A stretch of 64,000 nucleotides of DNA from Micromonospora olivasterospora (lineage in GTDB: Bacteria > Actinomycetota > Actinomycetes > Mycobacteriales > Micromonosporaceae), in contig NZ_VLKE01000001.1 of assembly GCF_007830265.1 (NCBI RefSeq), forward strand, positions 310,001 to 374,000, in the 5' to 3' direction. Below are positions 59 to 43,640 of the stretch, in pieces (the first letter of the stretch is position 1; each line of letters starts with the position of its first letter). The notes beneath the pieces are model-generated. The model saw nothing but the letters and a program-made list of their open reading frames with translations. It ran no database searches and was not told the DNA's origin. Both the position numbers and the translations under genes were made by a program.

Positions 59-75
59 ATTCCGGCAAGCGGAAC
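59..75. promoter_or_regulatory. Cluster operator site 1 (17-bp inverted repeat)
   Basis: ATTCCGGCAAGCGGAAC matches the recurrent GTTCNG-N5-CGGAAC palindrome. It ends 43 nt before the ATG of the hydratase gene and is the likely regulator site for the hydratase/dehydrogenase/aldolase operon. Confidence 0.7.
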
Positions 76-118
76 ACTTCGCTCGGTAAATGGACCTGTG
101 ATCGCCAAAGTGTGCAGC

Positions 119-937
119 ATGGACGTCACCCTTGCCGATCCCAGGACACCGGTCGGTGCGGCCGCCGAGCGCCTCCGCGCGGCCGCGCGTGACCGGATTC
201 CCTGTCCACCGTTGCGCGACCTCATCGATCCCGACGACATCGCCACGGCGTACGCCGTGCAGGAGCGGTTGAGCGAGTTACGTCTTGTGAACGGGGCCAG
301 GGTGGTCGGCCGCAAGATCGGCCTGACGTCCCCCGCCGTCCAGGCTCAGCTCGGCGTCGACCAGCCCGACTTCGGCGTGCTGTTCGACGACATGGAGTTC
401 GCCACGGGGGCCGAGTTGCCCACCGAGCGGCTGCTGCAACCCAGGGCAGAGGCCGAGATCGCCTTCGTCCTCGGCGCCGACCTGGCGGACGGCCCGCTCG
501 ATCCGGCCCAGGTGCGGGCGTCTGTCGCCTACGCCGTCGCGGCACTGGAGATCGTCGACAGCCGGATCGCCGGATGGGAGATCACCTTCGCCGACACCGT
601 CGCCGACAACGCGTCCAGCGGGCTCTACGTGCTCGGCTCGGAGCGCCGTACGCTCGCCGAGGTCGAGCCGGCCGAGGTCGAGATGCGGATGCTCGTCGAC
701 GGCGAGGTCGTCTCCACCGGAAACGGCGCCGCCTGCCTCGGCGACCCCCTGGAGGCGCTGGCCTGGCTCGCCCGCACCGCCCGGGAGTTCGGGGAGCCGC
801 TGCGAGCCGGCCAGGTGGTGCTCTCCGGCGCGCTCGGCCCGATGCACCCCGTCCATCCCGGCGCCCTGGTGACGGCCGAGATCAGCGGCCTCGGCAGCGT
901 GACCACCACGTTCTCGGCACAGGAGGAGCGAGCATGA
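119..937 (+). CDS. mhpD: 2-keto-4-pentenoate hydratase (2-hydroxypenta-2,4-dienoate hydratase)
   Basis: Adds water to 2-hydroxypenta-2,4-dienoate to give 4-hydroxy-2-oxovalerate, the first step of the lower meta-cleavage pathway. The 272-residue product is close to the roughly 270 residues of MhpD. It has the family motif GRKIGLTS (residues 64-71) and the acidic metal-binding residues E111 and E113 (in RAEAEIAF) and E144 (in LEIVDSRI). I chose ATG 119 over the in-frame GTG at 98. That start gives the family length and puts the upstream operator 43 nt away, as for several other genes here. No strong ribosome site is seen for either start. Its stop overlaps the next start (ATGA), so it begins a three-gene operon. 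Confidence 0.9.
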
Positions 938-1881
938 GCAAGACCAAGGTCGCGATCATCGGGTCGGGCAACATCGGCACCGACCTGATGATCAAGATAA
1001 TTCGGCTCTCCGACACCCTCGAGATGGGCGCCATGGTCGGCATCGACCCGGCGTCCGACGGCCTGGCCCGCGCTCGTCGCCTCAAGGTGCCCACCACCCA
1101 CGAGGGCGTCGACGGGCTCATCGCGATGGACGGCTTCGACGACATCGAGATCGTCTTCGACGCCACCAGCGCGAAGGCCCACGAGGCCAACGCGGCCCGG
1201 CTGGCACCGTACGGAAAGCGTCTCATCGACCTGACGCCTGCGGCCCTCGGCCCGTTCGTGGTGCCGGCGGTCAACCTCGGCGAGCACCTCGACGCCCGGA
1301 ACGTCAACATGGTCACCTGCGGCGGCCAGGCGACCATCCCGATCGTCGCCGCGGTCTCCCGGGTCACCCCGGTCGCCTACGCCGAGATCGTCGCCTCGAT
1401 CGCCTCCAGGTCGGCCGGGCCGGGCACCCGGGCCAACATCGACGAGTTCACCGAGACCACCTCGCACGCGATCGAGACCGTCGGTGGGGCGGCGCGCGGC
1501 AAGGCCATCATCATCCTCAACCCGGCGGAGCCGCCGCTGATCATGCGCGACACGGTCTTCTGTCTGATCGGCGCCGACGATCCGGCCGTGCACGACCGCA
1601 TCCGTTCCTCCATCGAGCAGATGGTCGCCGACGTGGCCGCCTACGTGCCGGGGTACCGGCTCAAGCAGCAGGTACAGATCACGGCGATCCCCCAGGGCCA
1701 GCCGGTGCACACGCTGGCCGGCACAGCGCCGCTGAGCCATCAGGTGTCGGTGTTCCTCGAGGTGGAGGGCGCTGCGCACTATCTGCCGGCGTACGCCGGC
1801 AACCTCGACATCATGACCTCCGCGGCCCTGCGCACCGCGGAGCGCCTGACCACTCACAAGCCCACGGAGGTGGCCGAATGA
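934..1881 (+). CDS. mhpF: Acetaldehyde dehydrogenase (acylating)
   Basis: Oxidises the acetaldehyde released by the adjacent aldolase to acetyl-CoA using NAD+ and CoA, normally inside an aldolase-dehydrogenase complex with substrate channelling. The 315-residue protein starts with a Rossmann motif ([12 protein letters not shown], residues 6-17) and has the catalytic cysteine C129 in [10 protein letters not shown]. The frame is open far upstream, but ATG 934 is correct: it follows AGGAGG at -12, overlaps the hydratase stop by ATGA, and gives the family length. The stop again overlaps the aldolase start by ATGA, suggesting coupled translation of the two partners. Confidence 0.93.
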
Positions 1882-2900
1882 CCGACATCTTCCTCCAGGA
1901 CGTCACCCTGCGCGATGGAATGCACGCCGTACGCCACCGCATCGCTCCCGCCGACGTCGGCCGGATCGTGGCCGCACTCGACGCGGGCGGCGTCGACGCC
2001 ATCGAGGTCGCCCACGGGGACGGGCTCGCCGGCAGCTCGGTCAACTACGGTCCGGGCAGCAACACCGACTGGGAGTGGATCGAGGCCGCTGCCGCCAACC
2101 TCTCCCGGGCTCGGCTGACCACGCTGCTGCTGCCGGGCGTGGGCACGATCGCCGAACTGAAGCACGCCTACTCGCTGGGCGTCCGCTCGGTGCGGGTGGC
2201 GACCCACTGCACCGAGGCCGACGTCGCCGCCCAGCACATAGCGACTGCCCGCGAGCTCGGCATGGACGTGTCGGGCTTCCTGATGATGAGCCACCTCAAC
2301 GACGCCGCCGGCCTCGCGCGGCAGGCGAAGCTGATGGAGTCGTACGGCGCCCACTGCGTCTACGTCACCGACTCCGGCGGTCGGCTCACGATGGATGGCG
2401 TGCGCGAACGGATCCGCGCCTACCGGGACGTGCTCGACCCGGCCACGGAGCTGGGCATCCACGCCCACGAGAACCTCTCGCTCTCCGTCGCCAACTCGGT
2501 CGTGGCCGTCGAGGAGGGTGTGCGCCGCGTCGACGCCTCGCTCGCCGGCCACGGCGCCGGAGCCGGCAACTGCCCGATCGAGCCGTTCGTCGCCGTCGCC
2601 AACCTGCAGGGCTGGAAGGTCCGGGCCGACCTGTTCGCGCTACAGGACGCCGCCGACGACCTGGTCCGGCCGTTGCAGGACCGGCCGGTACGGGTCGACC
2701 GGGAGACGCTCACCCTGGGGTACGCCGGCGTCTACTCCAGCTTTCTCCGGCACGCCGAGGCCGCGTCGGAGCGCTACGGCATCGACGTACGCACGATCCT
2801 GCTCGAGGTCGGCCGGCGCCAACTGGTCGGCGGCCAGGAGGACATGATCGTCGACATCACGCTCGACCTGCTCGCGGCGCGGGAGCCGGCGGCATCATAG
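1878..2900 (+). CDS. mhpE: 4-hydroxy-2-oxovalerate aldolase
   Basis: Cleaves 4-hydroxy-2-oxovalerate to pyruvate and acetaldehyde; acetaldehyde passes to the dehydrogenase encoded just upstream. The 340 residues form a DRE-TIM aldolase: the RDGMH motif (R12, D13) lies at the N-terminus and the metal-binding HxH is at about H195/H197 (GIHAHENLS), followed by the C-terminal communication domain of the BphI/MhpE/HsaF type. A second, decayed copy lies at 10,240-11,071. The gene closes the operon; the next 190 bases hold no convincing gene before transposon debris begins. Confidence 0.93.
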
Positions 2901-3093
2901 GGCTGGTGTGTCGCCCTCACGGGCGTGGCGCGACCGCATTGCCGCCCGGATCGCGGCCTACCGTTCGGGATCGGGCGGCACGGCGAAGGCGCACATTGGT
3001 CGTCGCCCCGGATCGTGCGCAGCGCCGCCTGCCGGTCCGGTCGGCGAATGAGTGTGGACCAACCGTGCTTTCGCAGATACAGACGTTGAATGG

Positions 3094-3380
3094 TCAGATT
3101 GTGTCGGGTTCGAGTGTCAGTCCGGTCTGAGCGAGGAAGCCGTCGAGCAGGTCGGTGCGGTACTGGACGCTCTTGAGTCGGTTCTTGATGACCGTGAGGA
3201 GATGATCGACGCCGGTCACGGCGAGGTTGCCGATGCTGCGTTTGTGGTGGGACCAGACGCCCTCGGTCGGGTTCAGGTCCGGGGTATAGGCCGGTAGCCG
3301 GATCACGGTCAGCCAGTCCCGGCCGGCGATAATCTGCCGCATCGCCGCGCTGATGTGGGTGTGAAAGTCGGCCCGAAGCG
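3094..3380 (-). pseudogene. IS630-family transposase C-terminal remnant
   Basis: An 82-residue minus-strand frame carries the end of a DDE transposase: the segment LPAYTPDLNPTEGVWSHHKR contains the last catalytic acidic residue in the family context (TPDLNPxE). Upstream in the same frame the text fades (FHTHISAAMRQ where a conserved aspartate segment is expected) and there is no start, N-terminal helix-turn-helix or first catalytic Asp. It is a truncated, non-functional element beside a group II intron remnant. Confidence 0.75.
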
Positions 3381-3490
3381 CGGTGCTGGTCTTTCGACCG
3401 GTCCGTTTCTTCGGGCCGCTTCCCGCACCCGGCGTGCCACTTTCACGGCACCGGGCGCTCCACAGGTCCCGGGTGGGCGGGCGTTGTCGA

Positions 3491-3935
3491 TCAGGTGCTT
3501 GGCCAGGGGGTGGGGATGACCGTTCCCCGGTAGCGGTAGCGGATGATCGCGACCGTGGCCGGGTTGAACAGTTCCCTTCCTGGCTGGTGGGCCACCAACC
3601 GCCGCCGCAGTAGCGGCGTCGGAGGTCTTTCCAGGTGATCCGGCGGTGTTTGCGGCGTAGCCATCTGATTACCCGGTCATGCCTGCTTTGAGGAACGCCT
3701 TCACCAGTGCCAGGACGCGGCGGTCCGCGATTCGTAGCCGTACCCGCGCCATAAGCGCCGGGTGCGAGATCTCATCGAAACAGGCCGTGATGTCGCCCTC
3801 CACGATCCACTCATACGACTTGGACGTGAAGTAGCGCACCTCGGCCACCGCGTCATGGGCTCGCCGTCCGGGACGGAACCCGTAGTTGCACGGGTGGAAA
3901 TCCGCTTCCCAGATCGGTTCGAGCACCAGCTTCAA
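3491..3935 (-). pseudogene. Group II intron reverse transcriptase/maturase remnant
   Basis: The minus strand encodes pieces of an LtrA-type intron protein. One frame (3669-3935) holds reverse-transcriptase blocks: PCNYGFRPGRRAHDAV followed by WIVEGDITACFDEISH. Further on, after frame changes, come the C-terminal maturase phrases WLRRKHRRITWKDLRRRY and IIRYRYRGTVIPTPW, with a stop at 3491. The middle (the YADD catalytic region) is missing and at least two frameshifts separate the blocks. It is a decayed retroelement, not a working gene. Confidence 0.75.
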
Positions 3936-4047
3936 GGGGCTTCGGCGCTTCCGCTAGACCGCAGCGCCCTGACCAGCGACAGGACCGGCAGACGTGCCAC
4001 AGGACCCCGATCATCTGTGGAACCCGACGGACGCGTCGCTTGACCTG

Positions 4048-4064
4048 GTTTCGTGCAGCGGAAC
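4048..4064. promoter_or_regulatory. Cluster operator site 2
   Basis: GTTTCGTGCAGCGGAAC is a copy of the 17-bp palindrome, 54 nt upstream of the first acyl-CoA dehydrogenase of the tandem pair at 4,119-6,391. Confidence 0.65.
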
Positions 4065-4118
4065 AACCGCGGGCACCGCTTTCACCGAGGTTCTACGGTC
4101 CTAGGAGTGATTTCCTTC

Positions 4119-5189
4119 ATGCCGACCGACGACGAGCAGGCGATCGCCGACGTTGTTCGAGAGTTCGCACGCACAGAGCTGCGGCCGATGGCGAGCCACA
4201 TCGAGGACGACCCCTCCGTGCTCGATGACGCGCTTCGGTCGTTCGGGCAGATCGGTCTGGTCCAGACGCTCGCGGAGGCAGGCCTTACAGGCGACGAGCT
4301 CTACCCGCGTGTTCTTTCGGCCATCGTGCTCGAGGAGCTGGCGTGGGCGGACGCGAATACGGCCGCCGCGTTCTCCGCGACGACCGCCTTCGTCCGCGCC
4401 GTAGCCGAGTTCGGCACCGACCACCAACGACGCACGGTGCTTGCGACGTACGCCGACTCGAGCCACGCGACAGCCGCGATCACGGCCACCGAGCTGGGCC
4501 TGCTCGATGATCCGCAGTCCCCCGCGACCGCCCTCACCACGACGCCCGACGGACTGGTCCTGAACGGCACGAAGACCCTCGTGCCGTTGGCGGACAGGTG
4601 CCAGCACTTCCTGGTGACGGCGCGTCACAACGAGCGACTCGTCGCGGTGATCGTGCCGGCGGACCGTGCGGGGCTCGAAATTGGACCCACGCGCGAGACC
4701 ATGGGACTGACGGCTCAGAGATTCCGAGACATCACCTTGCGCGACCTCCCGATTGACCCGGCGGACCTGCTCGGCGAGAGCGACATCCCCGCACTCGTCA
4801 ACAGCTCGTGGACCGCCGCCAGCGCCATCCTCACGGGTCTGTGTCGCGCGGTGCACGAGCACTCCGTCGAGTACACGAAGATGCGGTCGGCCCACGGCAG
4901 CCCGCTCGCCCGAAAGCAGACGGTCGCCCTGCGGCTCGTTGACATGCTCATCGACGTCGAGTCGATGCGATGGATGAGCTGGCGCGCCGCCACCCACATC
5001 GACAAGGGGATCGGTGGCGCCCGAACACCTCGCCTCGCCCACGCCCTCGCGGTGAAGAGGTCGAACTGGATCGTCGACGAAGGCGTCCAGCTCATGGGCG
5101 GCCACGGCTACATCACCGAGAACCCCGTCGAGGCGTGGTACCGGAATGCCAAGACGACCGCCACGTTGAGCTTGACGGTCGGCGTCTGA
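4119..5189 (+). CDS. Acyl-CoA dehydrogenase family protein, probable non-catalytic partner subunit
   Basis: A 356-residue acyl-CoA dehydrogenase-fold flavoprotein subunit. The middle domain (TAAITATELGLLDD) and C-terminal helical domain ending GGHGYITENPVEAWYRNAKT are clear. However, the usual segment with the catalytic glutamate (YEG followed by E-I/V-x-R) is absent; the chain ends shortly after YRNAKTTATL. It lies 23 bp upstream of a 392-residue dehydrogenase that has the glutamate. This matches actinobacterial alpha2beta2 dehydrogenases such as those of cholesterol side-chain degradation, where one subunit is catalytic. Start ATG 4119 is preceded by AGGAG at -16; GTG 4107 is possible. Confidence 0.85.
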   Translation: MPTDDEQAIADVVREFARTELRPMASHIEDDPSVLDDALRSFGQIGLVQTLAEAGLTGDELYPRVLSAIVLEELAWADANTAAAFSATTAFVRAVAEFGTDHQRRTVLATYADSSHATAAITATELGLLDDPQSPATALTTTPDGLVLNGTKTLVPLADRCQHFLVTARHNERLVAVIVPADRAGLEIGPTRETMGLTAQRFRDITLRDLPIDPADLLGESDIPALVNSSWTAASAILTGLCRAVHEHSVEYTKMRSAHGSPLARKQTVALRLVDMLIDVESMRWMSWRAATHIDKGIGGARTPRLAHALAVKRSNWIVDEGVQLMGGHGYITENPVEAWYRNAKTTATLSLTVGV

Positions 5190-5212
5190 CGAGCACTGGA
5201 GAACGAGACAAC

Positions 5213-10148: not shown

Positions 10149-10165
10149 GTTCTGCCAAGCGGAAA
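10149..10165. promoter_or_regulatory. Cluster operator site 3
   Basis: GTTCTGCCAAGCGGAAA fits the palindrome with one change in the last base. It lies 64 nt upstream of the acyl-CoA synthetase start, and in front of the decayed aldolase copy on the other side. Confidence 0.62.
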
Positions 10166-12419: not shown

Positions 12420-12436
12420 TTACCGGCAGACGGAAC
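12420..12436. promoter_or_regulatory. Cluster operator site 4
   Basis: TTACCGGCAGACGGAAC aligns with site 1 over 17 bp and keeps the conserved CGGAAC half. It is 41 nt upstream of the reductase gene in an otherwise featureless 225-bp gap. Confidence 0.55.
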
Positions 12437-15117: not shown

Positions 15118-15639
15118 TCACAGGATGATGCTCACTTTCGCCTGCGGCCGCAGCGCATCGAGGTCGAGCACCGACTTGCGCTCGACGAACCGGAACCCCT
15201 CGGACGTGACCCGCAGCACGTGTCTGTAGGTGCCGACGTAGGTGTCCAGGATCCCCGAGCGCACGCGGAACACGGCGAAGTTGGCCTTGACGCGGACGTG
15301 ATCCGCGTTCTCCGGACGGGCCTGGACGTTTGTGATCATCCGGCGGGTCCGTGAATGCGGGTACTCCGCGTGCGCGGACCGGGTCAGCAGCGAGTTCACC
15401 CGGTGTTCGAGCAGAAAGCGGTCGTCCTGGATGAGGAAGAGGTCACGCCCGGGATCTCCGTTGGGCAGATCCGTGGACGGCATCAGGTACGTGCCCTCCG
15501 GGACGAACAGCTCGAGCCACTCGTGCAGACGCCAGTCGTCGAGGAGGTTCGCCTCGTCGAACAGGAACGCCTCGACGTTGCGCGTCAACGTCGTGTTGGC
15601 GGCGGCCAGCTGCGGCGACCATGTCTGGACTTGCTCCAA
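15118..15639 (-). CDS. Aromatic ring-hydroxylating dioxygenase, beta subunit
   Basis: Small (173-residue) structural subunit of the alpha3beta3 dioxygenase, with the SnoaL/NTF2-like fold: NVEAFLFDEANLLDDWRLHEW, then SLLTRSAHAEYPHSRTRRMITN and the C-terminal FRVRSGILDTYVGTYRHVLR. The frame is open upstream into a CoA-transferase, but TTG 15639 is the likely start. GGAGG (15,647-15,651) lies 7 nt before it, the resulting length is normal for the family, and a copy of the cluster operator lies 65 nt upstream. It has no catalytic metal; it holds the alpha subunits together. Confidence 0.85.
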   Translation of the reverse strand: MEQVQTWSPQLAAANTTLTRNVEAFLFDEANLLDDWRLHEWLELFVPEGTYLMPSTDLPNGDPGRDLFLIQDDRFLLEHRVNSLLTRSAHAEYPHSRTRRMITNVQARPENADHVRVKANFAVFRVRSGILDTYVGTYRHVLRVTSEGFRFVERKSVLDLDALRPQAKVSIIL

Positions 15640-16803
15640 GGTGTGCCCTCCCAAAGTAAGTCGGCCGCCAGCGTCGATCGCGCGGCTGCGTTCATCCAGC
15701 GAATGTTCCGGGCGGCGGAACCGACGTCGTCCGCCCCAGCGGCCCCGCGCAGCGAGCAGGTCCATCAGGGCCGAGTCCGCCGTGACGCAGGAAGCGGAAC
15801 GCGAGAAGCGCGGCGCAGGCGCTCCGGCGGGCCCACTCGGGGTCTCCACCACGCTGCGGCGTGCTGCCAGCTGCGGATGCTCGACGGCCTCGACGAACGA
15901 CAGGACGGGCGTCACGCACGCGTCGCTGCCTACGAACACTTCCGCCCACTCGTCCCGCGTGCGCTGCTTGAACCGCTCGGCGAAGACCGTGCTGAGCTCG
16001 CACCAACCCGACGTGTCGTTCTGCTCGGGGAGGTCGCCGTCGGTCAACGACAAGCCCTCAAGCAGGAGCGCGTAGAACTGGGGCTCGATCGCGCCGACGG
16101 CGACGAACCGACCGTCGGCGCACTCGTAAGTCCGGTAGAACGGCGCCCCACCGTCGAGCAGGTTGCTCTCCCGCTCGTCGCCCCACGTCCCCTCGGCACG
16201 GAGCTCGAGGATCTGCTGGCCCAACGAGGCCACACCGTCCACCATAGCGGCGTCGACGACCTGACCACGCCCGGAGACGGTCCTCTCCCAGAGCGCCGCC
16301 AGGATGCCGAGCAGCAGGTACATGGAGCCGCCGGCGTAGTCGCCCACGAGGTTGAGCGGGGGCACAGGGCGATCAGCGGGACCGATGGCATGCAGGATCC
16401 CCGTCACGGACACGTAGTTGATGTCGTGCCCAGCCGTGCTGGCCAGGGGTCCGTCCTGCCCCCATCCCGTGACCCGGCCGTAGACGAGTCCCGGGTGCGC
16501 GGCCAGGCACGTGTCTGGGCCGAGCCCCAGCCGCTCCGTGGTGCCGGGTCGGAAGCCCTCGATCACCACGTCGGCGGCACCGATCAGCCCGAGAACCTCG
16601 TCCCGGTCGGCTGGGTCCTTCAGGTTCGCCACGACCGTCGTGCGACCTCGCAGCACGTGTGTCGCGAGAGCAGCCGCGTCGGCGTGCGAGCGGACGATGC
16701 GCACGACGTCGGCGCCGAGGTCGGCGAGAACCATTCCGGCGTGGGGGGTGGGCCCGATGCCGCCGAGCTCGACGACGCGGAGTCCGGCCAACGGACCTGT
16801 CAC
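15118..16803 (-). CDS. Class III (CaiB/BaiF) CoA-transferase; open frame continues into the dioxygenase beta subunit
   Basis: Moves CoA between carboxylic acids. Residues 1 to about 330 are a CaiB/BaiF protein: start MTGPLAGLRVVELGGIGPTPHAG, ADVVRIVR, and the catalytic aspartate D155 in NLVGDYAGGSMYLL. It begins 18 bp after the upstream dehydrogenase gene. The frame has no stop until 15,118 and so reads through the beta-subunit gene (561 residues in all). The join around residues 340-385 resembles neither family, and an operator and ribosome site lie inside it. I therefore think the transferase normally ends near 15,690 and that its C-terminus has been altered by deletion or frameshift. Confidence 0.75.
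   Translation of the reverse strand: MTGPLAGLRVVELGGIGPTPHAGMVLADLGADVVRIVRSHADAAALATHVLRGRTTVVANLKDPADRDEVLGLIGAADVVIEGFRPGTTERLGLGPDTCLAAHPGLVYGRVTGWGQDGPLASTAGHDINYVSVTGILHAIGPADRPVPPLNLVGDYAGGSMYLLLGILAALWERTVSGRGQVVDAAMVDGVASLGQQILELRAEGTWGDERESNLLDGGAPFYRTYECADGRFVAVGAIEPQFYALLLEGLSLTDGDLPEQNDTSGWCELSTVFAERFKQRTRDEWAEVFVGSDACVTPVLSFVEAVEHPQLAARRSVVETPSGPAGAPAPRFSRSASCVTADSALMDLLAARGRWGGRRRFRRPEHSLDERSRAIDAGGRLTLGGHTLEQVQTWSPQLAAANTTLTRNVEAFLFDEANLLDDWRLHEWLELFVPEGTYLMPSTDLPNGDPGRDLFLIQDDRFLLEHRVNSLLTRSAHAEYPHSRTRRMITNVQARPENADHVRVKANFAVFRVRSGILDTYVGTYRHVLRVTSEGFRFVERKSVLDLDALRPQAKVSIIL
15705..15721. promoter_or_regulatory. Cluster operator site 5 (perfect palindrome)
   Basis: GTTCCGGGCGGCGGAAC has both half-sites perfect (GTTCCG and CGGAAC). 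It lies inside the CoA-transferase/beta-subunit join, 65 nt upstream of the beta-subunit TTG, marking an internal promoter. Confidence 0.65.
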
Positions 16804-23012: not shown

Positions 23013-23029
23013 GTTCAGCACCTCGGAAC
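23013..23029. promoter_or_regulatory. Cluster operator site 6
   Basis: GTTCAGCACCTCGGAAC, 68 nt upstream of the extradiol dioxygenase start. One of two sites in the divergent gap; centres are 38 bp apart. Confidence 0.7.
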
Positions 23030-23050: not shown

Positions 23051-23067
23051 GTTCTCTCCTGCGGAAC
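23051..23067. promoter_or_regulatory. Cluster operator site 7
   Basis: GTTCTCTCCTGCGGAAC, 43 nt upstream of the phosphotransferase start at 23,111. It pairs with site 6 across the divergent promoter. Confidence 0.68.
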
Positions 23068-23110
23068 TTCCGCACGGAACGGCACGCGCGCTTGCCTAGG
23101 GTCCAGGCAC

Positions 23111-27108: not shown

Positions 27109-27125
27109 ATTCCGTGAAACGGAAC
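27109..27125. promoter_or_regulatory. Cluster operator site 8
   Basis: ATTCCGTGAAACGGAAC, 84 nt upstream of the SDR start at 27,024. The left half-site is TTCCG and the right CGGAA, a near-perfect palindrome. Confidence 0.68.
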
Positions 27126-27147: not shown

Positions 27148-27164
27148 GTTCTGATGTCTGGAAC
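27148..27164. promoter_or_regulatory. Cluster operator site 9
   Basis: GTTCTGATGTCTGGAAC, 42 nt upstream of the hydrolase start at 27,207. Its centre is 39 bp from site 8, the same arrangement as sites 6 and 7. Confidence 0.65.
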
Positions 27165-28106: not shown

Positions 28107-28153
28107 CGTGCGACGATGGCCACGGATCGCGGACGAGGGACTAAGGTTTGAGC

Positions 28154-28804
28154 GTGACGGATAATCACGAAACGTCCTCCAAGGGGGTTGGTTCGACGCG
28201 GGAACGCCTCATCGAGGCGGCGATGAAAGCGTTTTCGGCATCCGGTTTCGACGGCGTCTCCGGTCGTCAGATCGAGCGGATGGCCGGTGTCGAGCGAGGG
28301 CTGCTGGCGTACCACTTCGACACCAAGCAGCGTTTGTGGGAGACGGTCGTCGACCTGGTGCTCGATCGATGGACGGACGAGATGTTCGCCCTGCACGAGG
28401 CGCTGCGCGACGTCTCCCGCAGTGAACGCGCCCGCGCCATGCTCATGGCGTACGCCCGCTACAGCATGAGGAACCCGGAGTTCTTCCGCATCCTCGTGCT
28501 CGAGGGCTACGTGCGGACGGAACGAAGTCGCCACCTCGCGAAGCACCTGTGGTCCGGCGTGCAGGTCTTCCGCGAGACCTCCCACCCCGACCAGACCTAC
28601 AGCCCGGCCGAGGTCATCCAGATCTTCCAGATCATCGGGGCGGCCGGTGCGATGTCGGCGATGACGGCCTATCTCGACGACGACCTGGCGGACAGGCTGA
28701 CCAGTCCCGACGTGATCGAGATGTTCGCTCGAACGCTCGCGACGTCCTCCGCTCCCCGTTCCCAGCGCGGCAACCAGGACGACCTCTCCTCGTCGTTGCC
28801 CTGA
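28154..28804 (+). CDS. TetR family transcriptional regulator
   Basis: A 216-residue TetR repressor: helix-turn-helix at about residues 15-58 (RERLIEAAMKAFSASGFDGVSGRQIERMAGVERGLLAYHFDTKQRLW) and a ligand-binding C-terminal domain with FFRILVLEGYVRTERSRHL. GTG 28154 is taken as start; TTG 28148 is also possible. The damaged TetR gene at 29,767-30,086 is related, as both end with a segment like AAGAMSAMTAYLDDDL. It may control the dehydrogenase pair at 30,210, whose promoter lacks the 17-bp operator. Confidence 0.88.
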   Translation: MTDNHETSSKGVGSTRERLIEAAMKAFSASGFDGVSGRQIERMAGVERGLLAYHFDTKQRLWETVVDLVLDRWTDEMFALHEALRDVSRSERARAMLMAYARYSMRNPEFFRILVLEGYVRTERSRHLAKHLWSGVQVFRETSHPDQTYSPAEVIQIFQIIGAAGAMSAMTAYLDDDLADRLTSPDVIEMFARTLATSSAPRSQRGNQDDLSSSLP

Positions 28805-28873: not shown

Positions 28874-29659
28874 TCAGGCCAGCCACTCGGAAATCTCCTG
28901 GGCAGTACGCAAGACATCGCGCGCGTCGGTGGGCGCAAGGGCGCGAGCGTAGACGCGCGTGATGGAGACCGCGGCCACCACACGATCGTCGACGGCAACG
29001 GGGGCGGCCACACAGAGAACTCCCGGCTGCGACTCGTGAACGTCGTAGGAGAGCCCGGTCCGCCGGATGTCCGCGAACTGTTGGAGCAGCACACGCGGCA
29101 GGACGATCGAGCCGCGTGACACCTGCGGCAGCGGCTTGGACATCACCGACCGGATGACATCTACGCTGGAGTAGGCCAGCAGACACTTGCCGAGCGCGGT
29201 GCGAACGGCCGGCATAGTGCCGCCCACCCGGGTCGGCACGACCGTGCCACCACGCGCGGTGAGCTTCTCGAGGTACAGCACCTCCTCCTCGTCCAGCACC
29301 CCGAAGTGGATGGTGGCGTTCGTGCGCTCGAACAATCGCGCCAGAGGCTGGCGCGCCTGCTCAACGAGTCGCACCCACTCGGACGAGCTGAGCGCCGACT
29401 GCAGCTCGAACCATGCATGTCCCAGACAGTAACGTTGGCCGTTGCGCCCCACCAAGCCTTCTGCCATCAACTCTGCGAGCACCCGGTGCGTGGTGCTCTT
29501 CGGGAGACCCGCGTGCAGCGCGACGGAGGTCACGCCCACGTCGCTGCCTCCAGCCTCGGCCAGCGAGCGAAGCACGCGTGCCGCCTTGGCGATCGACGAC
29601 AGGTTCTCGTCGGAATGGATCGCACGCCCAGCGCTGAGTGTGGTCATGTCGTACCCCAT
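28874..29659 (-). CDS. IclR family transcriptional regulator, candidate master regulator of the cluster
   Basis: A 261-residue IclR protein. The N-terminal winged helix-turn-helix includes SIAKAARVLRSLAEAG, VTSVALHAGLPKSTTHRVLAELMAEGLV and GQRYCLGHAWFEL. The C-terminal effector domain carries LYLEKLTARGGTVVPTRVGGTMPAVRTALGKCLLA and QPGVLCVAAPV. ATG 29659 (AACGGAG upstream) or 29647 are the probable starts. It is the only intact IclR in the window, and IclR boxes in other bacteria contain GGAA/TTCC half-sites, so it is the best candidate to bind the GTTCNG-N5-CGGAAC sites. Its own promoter shows no such site. Confidence 0.9.
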   Translation of the reverse strand: MGYDMTTLSAGRAIHSDENLSSIAKAARVLRSLAEAGGSDVGVTSVALHAGLPKSTTHRVLAELMAEGLVGRNGQRYCLGHAWFELQSALSSSEWVRLVEQARQPLARLFERTNATIHFGVLDEEEVLYLEKLTARGGTVVPTRVGGTMPAVRTALGKCLLAYSSVDVIRSVMSKPLPQVSRGSIVLPRVLLQQFADIRRTGLSYDVHESQPGVLCVAAPVAVDDRVVAAVSITRVYARALAPTDARDVLRTAQEISEWLA

Positions 29660-29766
29660 CTCCGTTGCACCGATCGTCGCGCTCGGTGCGCATCGCCTTG
29701 TCGCCTGACGAATTACTGGTAGGCTACTACGGCATCTGGCAGGCCTCAATCGCCTATGATTTGGTG

Positions 29767-30086
29767 ATGCACGCAACATTTTCGGCGGGAGGGCTCATCA
29801 CGACGCACGACTACGCAGGCTCTGAGCCCCACGACACCCGCGGCCCGCTGCTCGAGTCCGCAACGACCGCCTTCGCGACCCATGGCTACGACGCCGCCTC
29901 GATCCGCTCCGTCGAACGCGCAGCCGGCGTCGAGCGGGTCTTCCACATCGCCGGAGTGGCGCTCTGCTCGATGGCCGCATCGGCGCACTTCGACGACGAC
30001 CTGATGCGCCAGCCCAGATCGAACCGTTCGATGACCTGTTCGCAGCCACTCTCGCGTCCCGTTTCATCGGACCGTCCCGGGACTGA
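29767..30086 (+). pseudogene. TetR family regulator, internally deleted and frameshifted
   Basis: Starts MHATFSAGGLITTHDYAG and shows half a TetR helix-turn-helix (LLESATTAFATHGYDAASIRSVERAAGVERV). It then jumps directly to a C-terminal segment (FHIAGVALCSMAASAHFDDDL), so roughly 100 residues of the ligand domain are missing. A frame change near 30,015 leads into IEPFDDLFAATLASRFIGPSRD and a stop. It cannot make a normal regulator. It lies directly upstream of the dehydrogenase pair it may once have controlled. Confidence 0.78.
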
Positions 30087-30209
30087 CGGCTTCGGCGAGG
30101 GACGGAGAGGAACGCCCGGCGGGCGCGTCGTCCCGCAGAGCTGAACGACGCGTTGCCCGGCGGTCACCGGCGATGCAACCATCGACCCGACTTCCAAAAG
30201 GGGGCAAAC

Positions 30210-36697: not shown

Positions 36698-36714
36698 GTT
36701 CCGCGCACCTGAAC
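36698..36714. promoter_or_regulatory. Cluster operator site 10
   Basis: GTTCCGCGCACCTGAAC; the complement reads GTTCAGGTGCGCGGAAC, a full match. It lies 78 nt upstream of the dehydrogenase GTG at 36,619. Confidence 0.65.
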
Positions 36715-36722
36715 CTGCTTGG

Positions 36723-37530
36723 TCACGTGCTGCGTAAGGCCTCGACCGGCAACCGGTCGGCGATCTGTTGCACGGTGCGGCGGACCTCCGCGGCATCGCT
36801 CGGTGCGAGGACGCGGGCCGGCACGCCGGCCAGCGACACCGCGGCCACGGCCTGCGGCCTTAAAAGACGAGTGCCGCGACACAGAAGACCGCTTGGCGTG
36901 ACTCTTCTCGATCGTAGGCCAGCCTCGATCGCAGGCCAGCCTCGTCGTGCGGATGCCTCGATCCGCTGGAGCAACAGGCGAGGCAGCACCATGGACGACC
37001 GGCGGGCGCGAGGCATCGGCTTGACCAGGATCGTCCGCACCGTCGCGGCCCCGCTGATGGGCAGCAACGACTTGCCCACGGCCGTGCAGGTGGCCGGCAC
37101 TTGCCCGCCCACCCGTGTCGGCCCAGCGGCGCCTCCCCTGGCGGTGAGCTTCTCCAGGTGCACCACCTCGTCGCCGTCCAACACCCCCAGATGCACGGTC
37201 GCCCCGGTACGTTCGAAGAGTCCCGCCAGCGGCACCCTGACGTAATGGGCCCGCTGGAGCCGCTCCGACGAGCTGAGCGCCAACGCAGCTCGAACCAGCT
37301 CGGCCCGAGGCTATAGCGGTGTCCTGACCGCCCGACGAATCCCTCGTTGATCAGCTCCGACAAGACCCGGCGAGTTTCTTCGGCGGCTCAGCGAAGCTGC
37401 GCGAGCTCGGTGACTCCGGCCTCGCCGTCGCCCGCCACCAGTGACCTCAGGACGCGCGCAGCCTTCGCGATCGAGGACAGTCCGTCGTTTGGGAGAGCAT
37501 CGTACCCCGAGTCGCAGGCGTCACCGGACA
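36723..37530 (-). pseudogene. IclR family regulator, decayed paralogue
   Basis: A broken relative of the IclR gene at 28,874. Pieces in order: LSSIAKAARVLRSLVAG, then LSELINEGFVGRSGHRYSLGPSWFEL, then (other frame) VPLAGLFERTGATVHLGVLDGDEVVHLEKLTARGG and TAVGKSLLPISG, ending VLAPSDAAEVRRTVQQIADRL. Frame changes occur in the helix-turn-helix region, near 37,285 and at the 17-bp tandem duplication (36,908-36,941). No complete product is possible. A degenerate operator lies about 70 bp upstream, suggesting that the ancestor was in the same regulon. Confidence 0.82.
36908..36941. repeat. 17-bp tandem duplication inside the IclR pseudogene
   Basis: TCGATCGTAGGCCAGCC is followed directly by TCGATCGCAGGCCAGCC. 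Seventeen is not a multiple of three, so this duplication alone shifts the reading frame. Confidence 0.9.
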
Positions 37531-37598: not shown

Positions 37599-37615
37599 GT
37601 TCAGAAGCGCCGAAC
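37599..37615. promoter_or_regulatory. Degenerate cluster operator upstream of the IclR pseudogene (site 11)
   Basis: GTTCAGAAGCGCCGAAC matches the palindrome except for C in place of G in the right half. It is about 70 bp upstream of the pseudogene start. Confidence 0.45.
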
Positions 37616-38501: not shown

Positions 38502-38543
38502 GCTGCCCACTCTCACACGCGGACGCCCTCGGCGCGCAGAACG

Positions 38544-38560
38544 GTTCCACACGCCGGAAA
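38544..38560. promoter_or_regulatory. Cluster operator site 12
   Basis: GTTCCACACGCCGGAAA, 42 nt upstream of the C-C hydrolase start. Confidence 0.62.
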
Positions 38561-38599
38561 GGCCCTGGGCTCCGGACGGGACCGTCCTCCCTTCCGGTC

Positions 38600-39337
38600 T
38601 CAGCCTCCTACATAGTGATCGAACACGTCACCGGCCATGAGCGTCGCAGGCTCCCCGTCGAACACGATCTCGCCACGCCGCATGACGTACGCTGCGTCGG
38701 CCATGGCCATCGCCCGGTCCACGAACTGGTCGATGAGCAGGAGCGCCGTTCCGCCTGTTGCCATGGCTCCGAGGAACTCATAGATCTTGTCGACCATCAC
38801 CGGCGAGAGGCCCAAGGAGGGCTCGTCGACCACGATCAGCCGCACGTCCCTGACGTACGCCGCGGCCATGGCCAGCATCTGCTGCTCACCGCCACTCATC
38901 GTGCCGGCCTGCTGGCCGAGCCGATCCCCTAGGATCGGGAAGGCGGCCACTGCACGCTCGATCGCCTCGGTCTCACGGTCCGGCGAGGCCTGCAGCTGGA
39001 GGTTCTCCCGGACGGTCAGGGAGCGATAGACGGCCCTGCCCTCCGGGATGTGGCACAGACCCTGCTGCGCGCGCCGGAACGGCTCGAGTCGCGTGACGTC
39101 GTCGCCGAAGAACTGGACGCTGCCCTCCTTGACCGGCAGCAGCCCGCTGACGGCCCGAAGCAGAGTGGTCTTTCCCGCGCCGTTGGGTCCGACGAGGGCC
39201 GTCACCGACCCGGCGTCCACCCGCAGCGAGACGCCGCGCAGGACGTCTGTCTGCCCGTAGCCGACGCTCAGGTCCGAGACGAGCAGCGCCGCGTCGTTCT
39301 CGGGAGCACTCGTCGTGTCGATCGGGCTCTGGCTCAT
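38600..39337 (-). CDS. livF: Branched-chain amino acid-type ABC transporter ATP-binding protein
   Basis: A 245-residue LivF-type ATPase: Walker A GPNGAGKTT, signature TMSGGEQQMLAMA, Walker B RLIVVDEPSLGLSP. It energises uptake of the pathway substrate through the permease encoded upstream, to which it is coupled by an ATGA overlap (39,334-39,337). The start at 39337 gives the normal N-terminus; open frame beyond it is a shadow of the fused gene. Confidence 0.92.
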   Translation of the reverse strand: MSQSPIDTTSAPENDAALLVSDLSVGYGQTDVLRGVSLRVDAGSVTALVGPNGAGKTTLLRAVSGLLPVKEGSVQFFGDDVTRLEPFRRAQQGLCHIPEGRAVYRSLTVRENLQLQASPDRETEAIERAVAAFPILGDRLGQQAGTMSGGEQQMLAMAAAYVRDVRLIVVDEPSLGLSPVMVDKIYEFLGAMATGGTALLLIDQFVDRAMAMADAAYVMRRGEIVFDGEPATLMAGDVFDHYVGG

Positions 39338-42069
39338 GGTGTCCCTCCGGTGACGAGACAGTTGTCGGCCTTCGGCAGGTGCTGGGCGAAGGACGATCCC
39401 AGGTAGGCCGCCTGCACCACTGCGCTGGCCGCGACCTCGGCGGGAGTTCCCTCGAACAACGGCTTGCCGAAGTCGATGACGTACAGGTAGTCGCACACCT
39501 GCATCACGAACGCCATGTCGTGCTCGACGAGTAGGATCGCGCAGTTTCTCTCCTGCACGACCCGCTCAAGCACCGCTCGGAGTCGATCGCTCTCGGCGTG
39601 GTCCAGACCCGCCGATGGCTCGTCCAGCATGAGCACGTCGAAGTCGCCGGCCAGGCAGCGCGCCACCTCGACGAGGCGGCGTTCGCCCGTCGACAGGTTG
39701 CCTGCGGGTACCTCAGCCAGGGCGGCGATGCCACACAACTCCAGCGCCGACTCGGTCGCGGCCGCGACCACGCTCCGCTCGCCGGGAGCGACACGTACGG
39801 CCATCTGCGACAAGGGATTCCACCCAGCCGCCGCCGCCTCCCGCCCCATGGCCACGTTTTCCCGCACGGTCAACGAGCCGCAGAGCTCCGTGACCTGGAA
39901 CGTGCGCCCCAGACCCGCACGTGCCCGGCGTTGCGCGCTGAGGCCGCCGATGTCCTCCCCGTGGAGCAGCACGCGCCCCGTCGTGGAACGCACCAGGCCG
40001 CTGCAGGCGTTGAACATCGTCGTCTTGCCCGCGCCGTTGGGACCGATGAGGCCGGTGACCCGACCCATCGGTGCCGAGATGGTCACTCCGTCGACAGCAC
40101 GCAGACCGCCGAAGTGGACTCTCAGTTCGCGCACGTCGAGACCATCCGCCCCGGGCGGGCGCGGTGCCGCACCTGGAACCGACGGCAGGTCCGCCAGCGT
40201 GACGGACCGGCCCTGTGGCGACCATGCGAACCTGGCGAGGAGGTCGCTGAAGCGCTTCGGCAGCGGGGCCGCGCCGCCCTGCAGGGAGACCGCGACGGCG
40301 AACGCTCCGAAGAGGAGGTTCAGCCAGTTTTCGAGGCCCTCGCCGTGCAGGTAGGCCGGAAGGATCGCGACGGGCAGTCCGAAGATCGCGTACCAGGGCG
40401 CGCCCAGCGGTGCGATCACGAAGATCACCAGCAGGACGAGCGAGTGGAACGACGTGTAGTTCGCGTCGACGTAGGTCGCGTAGCTGACGGTTGTGCCGTA
40501 CAGGATCCCCGAGAGGCCAGCGAAGAAGCCCGATAGAGCGAACACGAGGACCTTGATGCTGCTCGTGGTGAGCCCCATCGCCTGGACCGCCGTCGGAGAC
40601 TCCGAGAGCCCACGCAGCATGCGCCCCAGTCGGCCGCGGTCGATCAGGTACATGAAGACGGCTGTCGCGACCGTGATCGAGAGTAGGAGGTAGTAGAACG
40701 CCTCGTCGGTCTCGGCCCACGATGGCCTCGGCATCAGACGGCCCACGCCGTCGTTCCCGAAGGCGAAGTCGAGCGGATAGACCAACCGCTCGACCGCAAT
40801 GCCGAACGCCAGGGTCGCCAGAGCGAGGAACAGTCCCCTCAGACGAATCGCCGGAAGGGCCACGAGCGCAGCCACGGGGACCACGACCAAGGCGCCCAGC
40901 AGCACGGCAGGGGCCCAGCCAAGCCCCGCCTGGGTAACGATCTGGGAGAATGTGAAGGCACCGATGCCCGCAAACGCGGCGTGACACATGGATACCTGAC
41001 CGGAGGTCCGCACAAGCAGCCCCAGCGACAGGAGCATGATCATCAGCGTCAGTCCGTGCATGTAGTTGATCAGCTCCAGCTCGGCGTACCGTGGAGCCAG
41101 GGCCAGCAGACCCACGACGATGACCGCCATGATCGCCATCACGGATCCCGGCGCTCGCGTCCGCACCACGATGCGTTGCTGGGTCTGACGCGCTTCGCCG
41201 AGCTTCCGCTTCGGAGTGACCATCAGCGCCACGAGCAGGACGATGAAGGGCAGGCTAATCGGCAGGCCCGACAGCCAGGAGACCTCGATCGTCCATCGCT
41301 GCAGCAGCGCCGCTACGACGCCGAGCACGAGTCCGCCCACGGACGTCAACGGAATGCTGGTGAAGCCGCCGAAGGCGGCTGCACCGATCGCGGAGACCAC
41401 GAGATAGGTCAGCGCGATCGACTCCAGACCGACCATCGGGGCCAGCAGGACCCCGGACGCGGACGCCAACGTCGATCCGATGATCCAGGCCGCGCGACGG
41501 ACCCGGTTCGGGTTCGTGCCGTGGAGACCGACGAGTGCGTCGTCGTCGACCACCGCCCGCATTGCCAGCCCCATGCGGGACCGACGGAAGAACGTGTAGA
41601 GAGCCGCCGCGGCGAGCACCGCCACGCACGTCACCTGGAGCTGATCCCAGCCGATGTTGACGCCGGCGAGGTCGAAGGTCGACTTGCCGCCCGGCAGGTA
41701 CTGATCCATCCGGAGCGGATCCGGGCCGAACTTTAGGGTGGCGAGCGCCTGGACCATGAGGATCATGCCGACCGTGCCGACGATCTGCAGCGCGACCCGG
41801 CGGTGCACAATGTGGCGTCCCACCAGCTCCAGCACCACCCCCAGGACGGCACCCAGCACCGGAACGGCGAGGGCGAACGCGATGGGCCATGGCACCCCGT
41901 GGACCTGCCAGAGCCAGTAGAAGAGGTACGCGGCGACCGCGGCGATGGCGCCGTGCGCGAAGTTGAAGATGCCCGAGGTCTTGTAGGTGATCACGAGTCC
42001 GGAGCCGGCGAGGCCGTAGACGGCACCCGTCGTGATGCCGGCGATGATGTAGGGCAGGAGACTGCTCAT
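39334..42069 (-). CDS. Fused ABC importer: permease LivH, permease LivM and ATPase LivG in one chain
   Basis: A 911-residue protein that joins three normally separate subunits. Residues 1 to about 290 are LivH-like (LLPYIIAGITTGAVYGLAG start, then GTNPNRVRRAAWIIGS). Residues about 310-615 are LivM-like (VRTSGQVSMCHAAFAGIGA, IRLRGLFLALATLAFGI). Residues about 650-905 are a LivG ATPase with Walker A GPNGAGKTT, signature NLSTGERRLVEVARCLAG, Walker B FDVLMLDEPSAGLDH. There is no stop or frame change between domains. Membrane complex importing the cluster's acid substrate, with LivF and the binding protein next to it. Confidence 0.92.
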   Translation of the reverse strand: MSSLLPYIIAGITTGAVYGLAGSGLVITYKTSGIFNFAHGAIAAVAAYLFYWLWQVHGVPWPIAFALAVPVLGAVLGVVLELVGRHIVHRRVALQIVGTVGMILMVQALATLKFGPDPLRMDQYLPGGKSTFDLAGVNIGWDQLQVTCVAVLAAAALYTFFRRSRMGLAMRAVVDDDALVGLHGTNPNRVRRAAWIIGSTLASASGVLLAPMVGLESIALTYLVVSAIGAAAFGGFTSIPLTSVGGLVLGVVAALLQRWTIEVSWLSGLPISLPFIVLLVALMVTPKRKLGEARQTQQRIVVRTRAPGSVMAIMAVIVVGLLALAPRYAELELINYMHGLTLMIMLLSLGLLVRTSGQVSMCHAAFAGIGAFTFSQIVTQAGLGWAPAVLLGALVVVPVAALVALPAIRLRGLFLALATLAFGIAVERLVYPLDFAFGNDGVGRLMPRPSWAETDEAFYYLLLSITVATAVFMYLIDRGRLGRMLRGLSESPTAVQAMGLTTSSIKVLVFALSGFFAGLSGILYGTTVSYATYVDANYTSFHSLVLLVIFVIAPLGAPWYAIFGLPVAILPAYLHGEGLENWLNLLFGAFAVAVSLQGGAAPLPKRFSDLLARFAWSPQGRSVTLADLPSVPGAAPRPPGADGLDVRELRVHFGGLRAVDGVTISAPMGRVTGLIGPNGAGKTTMFNACSGLVRSTTGRVLLHGEDIGGLSAQRRARAGLGRTFQVTELCGSLTVRENVAMGREAAAAGWNPLSQMAVRVAPGERSVVAAATESALELCGIAALAEVPAGNLSTGERRLVEVARCLAGDFDVLMLDEPSAGLDHAESDRLRAVLERVVQERNCAILLVEHDMAFVMQVCDYLYVIDFGKPLFEGTPAEVAASAVVQAAYLGSSFAQHLPKADNCLVTGGTP

Positions 42070-42096
42070 GAGGGGTTCCTTGGTCGTCTCGAGGCA

Positions 42097-42147
42097 GACG
42101 ATGTCTCTGAAGCACCATCGTCATGGCGGCGCTCCAGAGACATCGTC
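42097..42147. repeat. Intercistronic inverted repeat between binding protein and permease genes
   Basis: GACGATGTCTCTG (42,097-42,109) and its exact complement CAGAGACATCGTC (42,135-42,147) flank a 25-nt loop in the 82-bp gap. A stem-loop here could stabilise the upstream binding-protein message or partly stop transcription, giving more binding protein than membrane components, as in other ABC operons. Confidence 0.7.
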
Positions 42148-42151
42148 GCGG

Positions 42152-43387
42152 CTACAGGCAGGTCGAGGCGAGCTCGCCCGTCTCACCGTTGCCCGACTCG
42201 CCCTGTGCGGGGAGCAGCTTCGGCGATGCGTCACCGGCGGTATACTCAGCCATCCAAAAGCAGTTGATCTTCGGCTGAGGGCCGTTCTCCGTAAAGGTCA
42301 GGGGCTGGGGCAGGAGCCCGCCGAGCGTCTCGTCCTTCACGCCGCTCAGCGCCTTCTTGACCCCCGCGGGTGAGACGTCGGCCACGTCGGTGCCGTCCAG
42401 CGCCTTGCGGAGCAGCTCGAGCTGCACCCACGTGGAGGTGGCGACCGGCGTCCGGGTGACGGTCTTGCCCGCGTGCTTGCTCATCGCGTCGTTGAAGGCC
42501 TTGACGCCGGGGTGATCGATCCACCACGGGAACGAGTTGATCGGCCCGATGAACGTGACGCCCTTGACCTTCGACATGGAGTCCTGGTTGAAGCTGGCCG
42601 TCGTCGTGCCGAAGACGCCCGCGTATCCCTGGCGGATGCACGCCTCAGCCACGCGGCTGCCGGGCACCGGCGAGAGGTCGAGCTGGATCTCGTCGACCTT
42701 CATGTCGATGAGCTGCAGGCACTCGGCCGTATAGTCAGGGGCGGACGACGTCACCTTCGGGCCCGAGTCGTACTCGATGCCTAGCTTCTCGGACGCGGCT
42801 GAGTACACGTCGCTGACGCCGGCGCAGATCGGGGACTCGGCACAGTACACGTTCCCGAGCTTCTTGACCCCGTGTGACTTTGCGGCCGTGACGACCGCGG
42901 GCACATAAGTCTCGGCTGCTGTCGTTGCGGCGTAGAGATTGCTAAGCTTGCCCACGGCACCGGGTGCGTACGACAGACCGAGCACCGGCACGCCGGACTT
43001 CTCCAGGTACTCTAGCACCGGCGCCTCCGCCGTGCTGTCGGCGACGATGACGGCCGACACCTTGTCGCGTTGCACCAACTGCCGGGCCACGGTGAGACCC
43101 GCAGCGGGGTCCGCCTTGGTGTCTCCGATGACAATTTCGACCTCGTGGCCCCCGATGCCACCGAGCTCGTTGGCGTACTTGGCCCACGCCTCAGCGACCG
43201 GGGCCGTCATGCCGACGAGGCTTGCGCTGTGGCCAGTGACCGAGGTGGCCACACCGATCTTGATGGGCCCTGCCGAAGCCGTACCGCCGTCGTCGTTACT
43301 GCCGCCACACGCGGTGACTATGAGTGCCGTGGTCACGATGAATGCCGCAAAGGTGGACATTCGGCGATGAAAGGGTGCGTTGATCAA
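42152..43387 (-). CDS. ABC transporter substrate-binding lipoprotein (LivK type)
   Basis: A 411-residue periplasmic-type binding protein. The N-terminal signal MINAPFHRRMSTFAAFIVTT ends in the lipobox VTAC at about residue 27, so it is a lipid-anchored extracellular protein. KIGVATSVTGHSASLVGMTAPVAEAWAKYAN is the leucine/aromatic-acid binding protein signature. It is the first gene of the transporter operon, divergent from the acyl-CoA synthetase at 43,746. Ligand probably the aromatic or cyclic acid broken down by the cluster. Confidence 0.92.
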   Translation of the reverse strand: MINAPFHRRMSTFAAFIVTTALIVTACGGSNDDGGTASAGPIKIGVATSVTGHSASLVGMTAPVAEAWAKYANELGGIGGHEVEIVIGDTKADPAAGLTVARQLVQRDKVSAVIVADSTAEAPVLEYLEKSGVPVLGLSYAPGAVGKLSNLYAATTAAETYVPAVVTAAKSHGVKKLGNVYCAESPICAGVSDVYSAASEKLGIEYDSGPKVTSSAPDYTAECLQLIDMKVDEIQLDLSPVPGSRVAEACIRQGYAGVFGTTTASFNQDSMSKVKGVTFIGPINSFPWWIDHPGVKAFNDAMSKHAGKTVTRTPVATSTWVQLELLRKALDGTDVADVSPAGVKKALSGVKDETLGGLLPQPLTFTENGPQPKINCFWMAEYTAGDASPKLLPAQGESGNGETGELASTCL

Positions 43388-43515
43388 GGGACTTCTCCAA
43401 AACCTAGACGGACCGCTGGAGGTTCGCTCGTGCTATGTCGACCGCGTCGCTCGAGCCCTCGGCGCGTGATGTAATGCACGACACTAGGTATGGGGGCTTG
43501 CGCCGACCGACAGCC

Positions 43516-43532
43516 GTTCAGCACACCGGAAC
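43516..43532. promoter_or_regulatory. Cluster operator site 13
   Basis: GTTCAGCACACCGGAAC, 128 nt upstream of the substrate-binding protein start. It differs from site 6 (GTTCAGCACCTCGGAAC) at only two positions. Confidence 0.68.
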
Positions 43533-43623
43533 AGTCTGGCGCGCGTGGGCACGCCGCGACGGGCCAGACCGCACCTGATTCGTCCGCCGCCGCGCCCGGT
43601 GAGCCGAACAAGCGTGGGCCTCG

Positions 43624-43640
43624 GTTCCAGAGATCGGAAC
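43624..43640. promoter_or_regulatory. Cluster operator site 14
   Basis: GTTCCAGAGATCGGAAC, 105 nt upstream of the acyl-CoA synthetase start at 43,746. Confidence 0.68.

Follow-up and report, generated by a model that had tools for sequence, protein, structure and literature searches.

The GTT-11-AAC subgroup of IclR group 1 operators has the consensus GTTYCR...YGRAAC, with 11 nt between GTT and AAC, and its site centres lie mostly 20 to 80 nt before the start codon, according to the survey by Suvorova and Gelfand (2021, PMC8222616). The survey also describes control of aromatic catabolism as common in the IclR family and aromatic-metabolism genes as underrepresented in this subgroup. We analysed a recurrent 17-bp palindrome in 64,000 nt of Micromonospora olivasterospora DNA (bases 310,001 to 374,000 of contig 1, here called the window; the host genome is 7.07 Mb in two contigs). 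The palindrome, with a consensus of roughly RTTCCG-N5-CGGAAY, is probably the operator of the IclR regulator encoded in the surrounding catabolic gene cluster, and is placed as an activator site. Computation establishes the sites, their enrichment in the cluster, their phasing with a -10-like element and their co-distribution with IclR genes.

The column counts of 14 window sites agree with the subgroup consensus as given in PMC8222616. For 10 of the 14 operators in the window the centre falls 50 to 77 nt ahead of the start codon (gap plus 9); the distance is greater at 36698, 27109, 43624 and 43516. In the survey, tandem sites 18 to 22 nt apart occur in 94 of 181 orthologous groups and are common, not obligatory, whereas the pairs in the window are 38, 39 and 108 bp apart. 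Control by an IclR-family protein generally extends to its own gene and one or two neighbouring operons (PMC8222616), in contrast to about 14 promoters here. GenR of Corynebacterium glutamicum, an IclR-family regulator of the gentisate pathway, has the operator ATTCC-N7(5)-GGAAT, with arms and spacing nearly those of the window sites (PMC8222616). The comparison is one of operators. GenR governs another pathway and a smaller gene set.

Clusters on the plasmids pRhX5 and pR8L1 (Rhodococcus) and pBCI1-2 (Pseudonocardia) resemble that of the window in their Rieske alpha and extradiol genes (63 to 76% identical), their IclR genes, the same operators and the -10 phasing, but differ in gene order; no functional study of them was found in a literature search. 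Other homologous clusters, in which the extradiol gene has an FCD or GntR gene nearby, occur in Rhodococcus ruber, Rhodococcus pseudokoreensis, Mycobacterium paragordonae and Streptomyces NBC_01454. Their extradiol enzymes are 50 to 65% identical to that of the window, and the Rieske alpha subunits 49 to 52% in the first three, but they have no IclR relative in the 41-kb stretches searched and few or no operators. The window system is of a known kind, in which aromatic catabolism is governed by an IclR-family regulator through group 1 operators. In the literature search we recognised no description of this regulon, and found none of its size, of its rigid promoter geometry or of one operator for two distant IclR types.

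Operator sites in the window

A preliminary description of this DNA had listed 14 copies of the palindrome, all of which are present at the coordinates given, and its site pairs 38 and 39 bp apart are correct. A symmetric matrix was built from these 14 sites; as it was trained on them, leave-one-out scores matter, and by these 13 of the 14 stay at or above 13 bits, with 12420 dropping to 9.2. The matrix also found a fifteenth, previously unlisted site at 30130, which scores 14.3 bits and lies ahead of an acyl-CoA dehydrogenase operon. With a threshold of 12 bits there were 15 sites in positions 1 to 43,700, all within 59 to 43,640, and none in 43,701 to 64,000; the scan gave no site of even 10 bits in this last 20.3 kb.

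Random host DNA (400 kb) contained 6 sites of at least 12 bits, so that 0.66 would be expected per 43.7 kb where 15 were observed. Equal density in unrelated DNA, which the preliminary description had named as grounds for refutation, is not seen, the cluster exceeding random host DNA more than 20-fold at this threshold. The exact pattern GTTCNG-N5-CNGAAC occurs at 10 distinct places in the genome, 5 of them inside the cluster. With up to one mismatch there are 262 places genome-wide, compared with 91 for the pattern read backwards, and for this reason the loose pattern alone is weak evidence.

The sites had been said to precede nearly every catabolic unit. This holds for 14 of the 15, each of which heads one of 14 apparent operons deduced from gene order; the site at 37599 instead precedes a decayed IclR gene. 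Sites and regulators are as follows (window coordinates; operators are putative; gap, nt from operator to start codon).

59 to 75, plus strand: operator of hydratase, ATG 119, gap 43; -10-like CAAAGT at 106-111
4048 to 4064, plus: operator of acyl-CoA dehydrogenase pair, ATG 4119, gap 54; -10-like TACGGT at 4094-4099
10149 to 10165, minus: operator of acyl-CoA ligase operon, ATG 10084, gap 64; -10-like CAGACT at 10119-10114
12420 to 12436, minus: weak operator of ferredoxin reductase, ATG 12378, gap 41; -10-like AAGACT at 12390-12385
15705 to 15721, minus: operator of Rieske dioxygenase operon, TTG 15639, gap 65; -10-like GACGCT at 15675-15670
23013 to 23029, minus: operator of extradiol dioxygenase operon, ATG 22944, gap 68; TAGAAC at +38, without the final T, not scored as phased
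23051 to 23067, plus: operator of APH-like/acyl-CoA dehydrogenase operon, ATG 23111, gap 43; -10-like TAGGGT at 23097-23102
27109 to 27125, minus: operator of SDR pair, GTG 27024, gap 84; -10-like TACCCT at 27078-27073
27148 to 27164, plus: operator of alpha/beta hydrolase-TetR operon, ATG 27207, gap 42; TTGGCT at +39, without the A, not scored as phased
30130 to 30146, plus: operator of acyl-CoA dehydrogenase pair, GTG 30210, gap 63; -10-like AACCAT at 30177-30182
36698 to 36714, minus: operator of acyl-CoA dehydrogenase pair, GTG 36619, gap 78; -10-like GACCGT at 36668-36663
37599 to 37615, no strand assigned: site upstream of decayed IclR gene, without a phased -10 whichever way it is read, outside the promoter counts
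38544 to 38560, minus: operator of HsaD/BphD-like hydrolase, ATG 38501, gap 42; -10-like GAGAGT at 38514-38509
43516 to 43532, minus: operator of ABC transporter operon, ATG 43360 (gap 155) or TTG 43387 (gap 128); -10-like TAGTGT at 43486-43481
43624 to 43640, plus: operator of second acyl-CoA ligase, ATG 43746, gap 105; -10-like CAAAGT at 43670-43675
28874 to 29647, minus: intact gene for a regulator of the IclR family (257 aa counted from the likely start), presumed operator binder
36753 to 37507, minus: decayed second IclR gene in two pieces with an internal stop, 49% and 55% identical to the intact IclR
28148 to 28804, plus: TetR-family gene, part of the operon that follows the 27148 operator, rejected as binder

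The same operators in other genomes

Across homologous clusters the operators track the IclR gene, not the enzymes. The nearest IclR in a whole genome, 64% identical, is that of genome G1005, taken as Amycolatopsis methanolica, inside a rearranged homologous cluster (extradiol enzyme 59%, thiolase 62%, SDR 61% and Rieske alpha 50% identical to those of the window), where 60 kb hold 11 sites of at least 12 bits against 2.0 expected from 360 kb of its own genome. On pRhX5 and pR8L1, whose Rieske alpha and extradiol genes are 70 to 76% identical to the window's, the sites are more numerous: 29 in 89 kb of pRhX5, compared with 4 in 100 kb elsewhere on this plasmid, another catabolic cluster included, while two stretches of pR8L1 that overlap hold 14 and 16. 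The Pseudonocardia plasmid pBCI1-2 has 5 sites in 41 kb, one directly before the IclR gene. By an incomplete gene table for pRhX5 and pBCI1-2, 29 of 34 sites are intergenic, with an intergenic share of the sequence of 13 to 26%. At the pBCI1-2 locus (L091) the cluster is compact and includes an IclR gene of its own; the source of the plasmid-bearing Pseudonocardia is given as Apterostigma dentigerum.

In the FCD/GntR clusters of R. ruber, R. pseudokoreensis, M. paragordonae and NBC_01454, tblastn detected no IclR relative in 41-kb stretches, and the site counts were 0, 3, 4 and 1, respectively, with a 12-bit threshold and 0, 1, 0 and 0 with a 14-bit threshold. The more distant loci of Rhodococcus DMU1 and Sphingobium AntQ-1 had 1 site each at 12 bits or more.

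Promoter geometry

Forty-three site-gene pairs were assembled, 14 from the window (30130 included, 37599 excluded), 24 from pRhX5 and 5 from pBCI1-2; sites with no start in reach, intragenic or weak sites and the second site of some pairs were left out, mostly by hand. The hexamer TAnnnT occurs 17 times in the 141-bp stretches of these pairs, 9 times at +38 or +39 from the operator centre, a number reached in 0 of 2000 shuffles. The looser A-N3-T is phased at +38/+39 in 12 of the 14 window promoters and in the opposite direction in 0 of 14 (binomial P 7e-13; 0 of 5000 shuffles), and likewise in 19 of 24 pRhX5 pairs and 4 of 5 pBCI1-2 pairs. In A. methanolica, which was not used to derive the rule, 7 of 12 sites are phased, never in both directions, and 6 of these 7 face an open reading frame. 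On pR8L1, whose promoters are relatives of those of pRhX5, the element is phased in either direction at 11 of 15 sites.

Chance matches seldom show this arrangement. Counting either direction, the matches with a phased A-N3-T numbered 0 of 12 in random DNA of the host, 1 of 19 in that of A. methanolica, 2 of 14 at the loci of the FCD type, of DMU1 and of Sphingobium, 0 of 9 for the control stretch of pRhX5 and 0 of 5 around an IclR relative in genome G324.

No good -35 element was seen in the 43 pairs; the most biased positions are T, G and C at +15, +17 and +18 (22, 25 and 22 of 43). If the hexamer starts at -12, the operator centre falls at -50/-51 and the operator therefore spans about -58 to -42. 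The operator is thus fixed upstream of the -35 place, before a weak core promoter, as in activator-dependent promoters, with the transcription starts themselves being predicted. As read from the DNA, this position points to an activator rather than a blocking repressor; the preliminary description had not proposed activation. We regard it as unlikely that IclR binds the sites as a repressor released by a pathway intermediate. The family does include repressors, activators and dual regulators (PMC8222616), and sites near divergent starts could hinder the opposite promoter; but a blocking repressor would need no fixed operator-to--10 spacing, and the place upstream of -35, the constant distance and the weak promoter elements all argue against it.

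Further chromosomal members of the regulon were looked for and rejected: only 1 of 15 off-cluster host sites of at least 13 bits has a phased -10, in a biased sample, since the stretches were mostly picked for strong matches. This lone site is at position 6,306,028 of contig 1, some 6 Mb from the window. Its operator, phased -10 and hydratase start copy the left end of the window and are followed by a truncated hydratase frame, as might remain if an end of the cluster had been duplicated or moved.

Distance from operator to start codon

The preliminary description had reported regular distances of 41 to 43 nt and 64 to 68 nt. With the likeliest starts we obtained the same classes, namely 43, 41, 43, 42 and 42 nt at 59, 12420, 23051, 27148 and 38544, and 64, 65 and 68 nt at 10149, 15705 (TTG start) and 23013. 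Annotated starts on pRhX5 give both classes as well (41, 42 and 44 nt, and 62 to 70 nt). The proposed reading as two helical turns is not needed, as leaderless versus leadered starts fit the difference of 21 to 27 nt better; we dropped it because the -10-like element keeps a constant distance from the operator, the position of the start codon alone being variable. Genes of the 42-nt class would be leaderless, because the predicted transcription start lies about 42 nt beyond the operator, at the start codon, and a leader of about 20 to 28 nt is predicted for the class of 62 to 70 nt (about 21 to 26 nt for the window gaps of 63 to 68 nt). The mean Shine-Dalgarno run is 3.4 in the leaderless class (n = 8) versus 4.9 at gaps of 54 to 85 nt (n = 18; P 0.02), and this weaker Shine-Dalgarno supports leaderless starts without proving them.

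Candidate regulators

The intact IclR (257 aa, near the 250 aa or so usual for the family) scores 47.6 bits with PF09339 (HTH_IclR; cut-off 22) and 94 bits with PF01614 (IclR_C; cut-off 24), which places it in the IclR family; the second IclR gene of the window has decayed. Relatives up to 67% identical occur in Streptomyces, Amycolatopsis, Mycolicibacterium and Rhodococcus. Close relatives are rare in genome samples, which fits horizontal spread. Matches were found in 4 of 354 genomes of the host family at 1e-40 (own genome included, the other three 38 to 40% identical), in 1 of 396 of the phylum at 1e-60 (own genome) and in 2 of 397 of the order (own genome and A. methanolica). In samples without the host genome there were 1 of 297 in the A. 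methanolica family and 1 of 19 in its genus, itself both times, and 0 of 301 in another family of the order. A search of genome contigs with the IclR gave a single match of 24%. Around the three relatives of 38 to 40% identity there were 2, 6 and 2 sites of at least 11 bits, and five of at least 13 bits in G324 have no phased -10; the Rhodococcus loci L085 and L087, with IclRs 35 to 39% identical, had 5 and 6 scattered sites of at least 11 bits.

All intact IclRs of the regulon, from the window, A. methanolica, pRhX5 (types A and B), pR8L1 (type B) and pBCI1-2, carry a PKST-x-HR recognition helix. The string is found in 0 of six other alignable host IclRs, which have different strings at that place. 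It is not exclusive, as the IclR of genome G179, outside the tested set, also has PKSTVHR. Judged by pairwise identity, the IclRs of the window, A. methanolica and pRhX5-A are only 29 to 37% identical to the type of B and pBCI1-2 (different at 63 to 71% of aligned positions). Types this distant seem to share the operator, which might have stayed fixed as the regulator was exchanged. Sites precede both IclR genes on pRhX5, both on pR8L1 and the one on pBCI1-2; that they stand before the IclR gene itself on three plasmids favours IclR as the binder.

On pR8L1 (L086, 19935-20767) the IclR-A gene is split into two overlapping frames and IclR-B is whole. This parallels the window with its decayed second IclR gene. 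In the IclR-A half of pRhX5 (L084, at 26354, 35909, 36838 and 39061) sites often end in GAAAC instead of GGAAC, and hardly any do in the IclR-B half, which may hint at two slightly different specificities.

It is very improbable that the sites are bound by the TetR-family protein of 28148-28804 or by another regulator. TetR proteins also bind palindromes, the gene is in the operon headed by the 27148 site, and the A. methanolica cluster has a TetR 40% identical. That is, however, its only clear counterpart: among the three plasmid TetRs compared, one per plasmid, the best match is 38% over 50 residues, and a clearly cognate TetR does not accompany the sites throughout. Each site-rich plasmid stretch has an IclR preceded by a site, and the motif belongs to a known IclR class (PMC8222616).

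The catabolic gene cluster

The cluster is a breakdown pathway for an aromatic compound. It encodes a Rieske dioxygenase and the ferredoxin and reductase that go with it, an extradiol dioxygenase of class III, an HsaD/BphD-like hydrolase and a lower pathway of the meta-cleavage type (hydratase, acetaldehyde dehydrogenase, aldolase). Further products are several acyl-CoA dehydrogenases, two acyl-CoA ligases, enoyl-CoA hydratases, a thiolase, SDRs, two APH-like proteins and a branched-chain-type ABC transporter. We name no substrate, because a search of solved structures with the extradiol enzyme gave no match and the Rieske alpha subunit matched many dioxygenases.

At 15118-16803 (minus strand) a CaiB-like CoA-transferase, the 15705 operator and the Rieske beta subunit all fall, in this order, within a single 561-aa open frame, which therefore has a promoter inside it. 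The CoA-transferase part seemingly has no stop of its own. Beside the intact IclR, a fragment at 29638-30144 (plus strand) matches the TetR N-terminus weakly, at 20.8 bits against a cut-off of 24, and is possibly a decayed second TetR gene.

Discussion

We infer IclR binding from the co-distribution of operators and IclR genes, the PKST-x-HR helix and the published motif class, all of which support the cluster-wide regulon with an IclR binder put forward earlier. Several observations weigh against an IclR activator with the promoter layout described above. The best match upstream of the intact IclR gene of the window is 8.8 bits, and the nearest site to the A. methanolica IclR is about 2.1 kb upstream. 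pRhX5 and pR8L1 carry two IclR types each, so the assignment of their sites is ambiguous. The phased A-N3-T is absent from two of the 14 promoters in the window and from 5 of the 12 sites in A. methanolica, and two strong sites in G324 (20.3 and 17.4 bits) have no phased -10. Start codons in the window were chosen by hand, most genes having other in-frame candidates, and a Shine-Dalgarno-like run of at least 4 is present in 4 of 8 leaderless-class genes. Chance palindromes of GC-rich DNA, or a genome-wide feature, are scarcely credible as an explanation, since the 262 one-mismatch places that would speak for them are set against the more than 20-fold density, the phasing in 12 of 14 cluster promoters versus 0 of 12 random host matches and the recurrence in four other replicons.

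In the mechanism that we infer, with its binding, activation, inducer and transcription starts, IclR would occupy an operator next to a poor -35, with its centre 38 to 39 bp ahead of a -10-like hexamer. A single IclR that responds to an inducer would switch on about 14 operons at once, for side-chain beta-oxidation, the Rieske dioxygenase, ring cleavage, the lower pathway and uptake. Their start codons would lie at the predicted transcription start (about 42 nt, leaderless) or after a short leader (about 65 nt).

For a large aromatic regulon and its Rhodococcus and Pseudonocardia plasmid relatives, the analysis supplies a probable regulator with its operator, and the places of promoters and predicted transcription starts. 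The fixed operator-to--10 distance turns a list of palindromes into a testable promoter rule, and phasing helps to separate true sites from chance matches. Tentatively, the stereotyped promoter module (operator, 38 to 39 bp, weak -10, start at +1 or about 24 nt later) might be a conserved inherited unit, found in front of many different catabolic genes in several genera of actinobacteria. Its regulators would then be exchangeable and at liberty to be duplicated or lost, as seen in the window and on pR8L1. From one homologous cluster to another the operator set goes with the type of regulator, and two distant IclRs seemingly share one operator, which offers a chance to study the replacement of a regulator without rewiring of its promoters.

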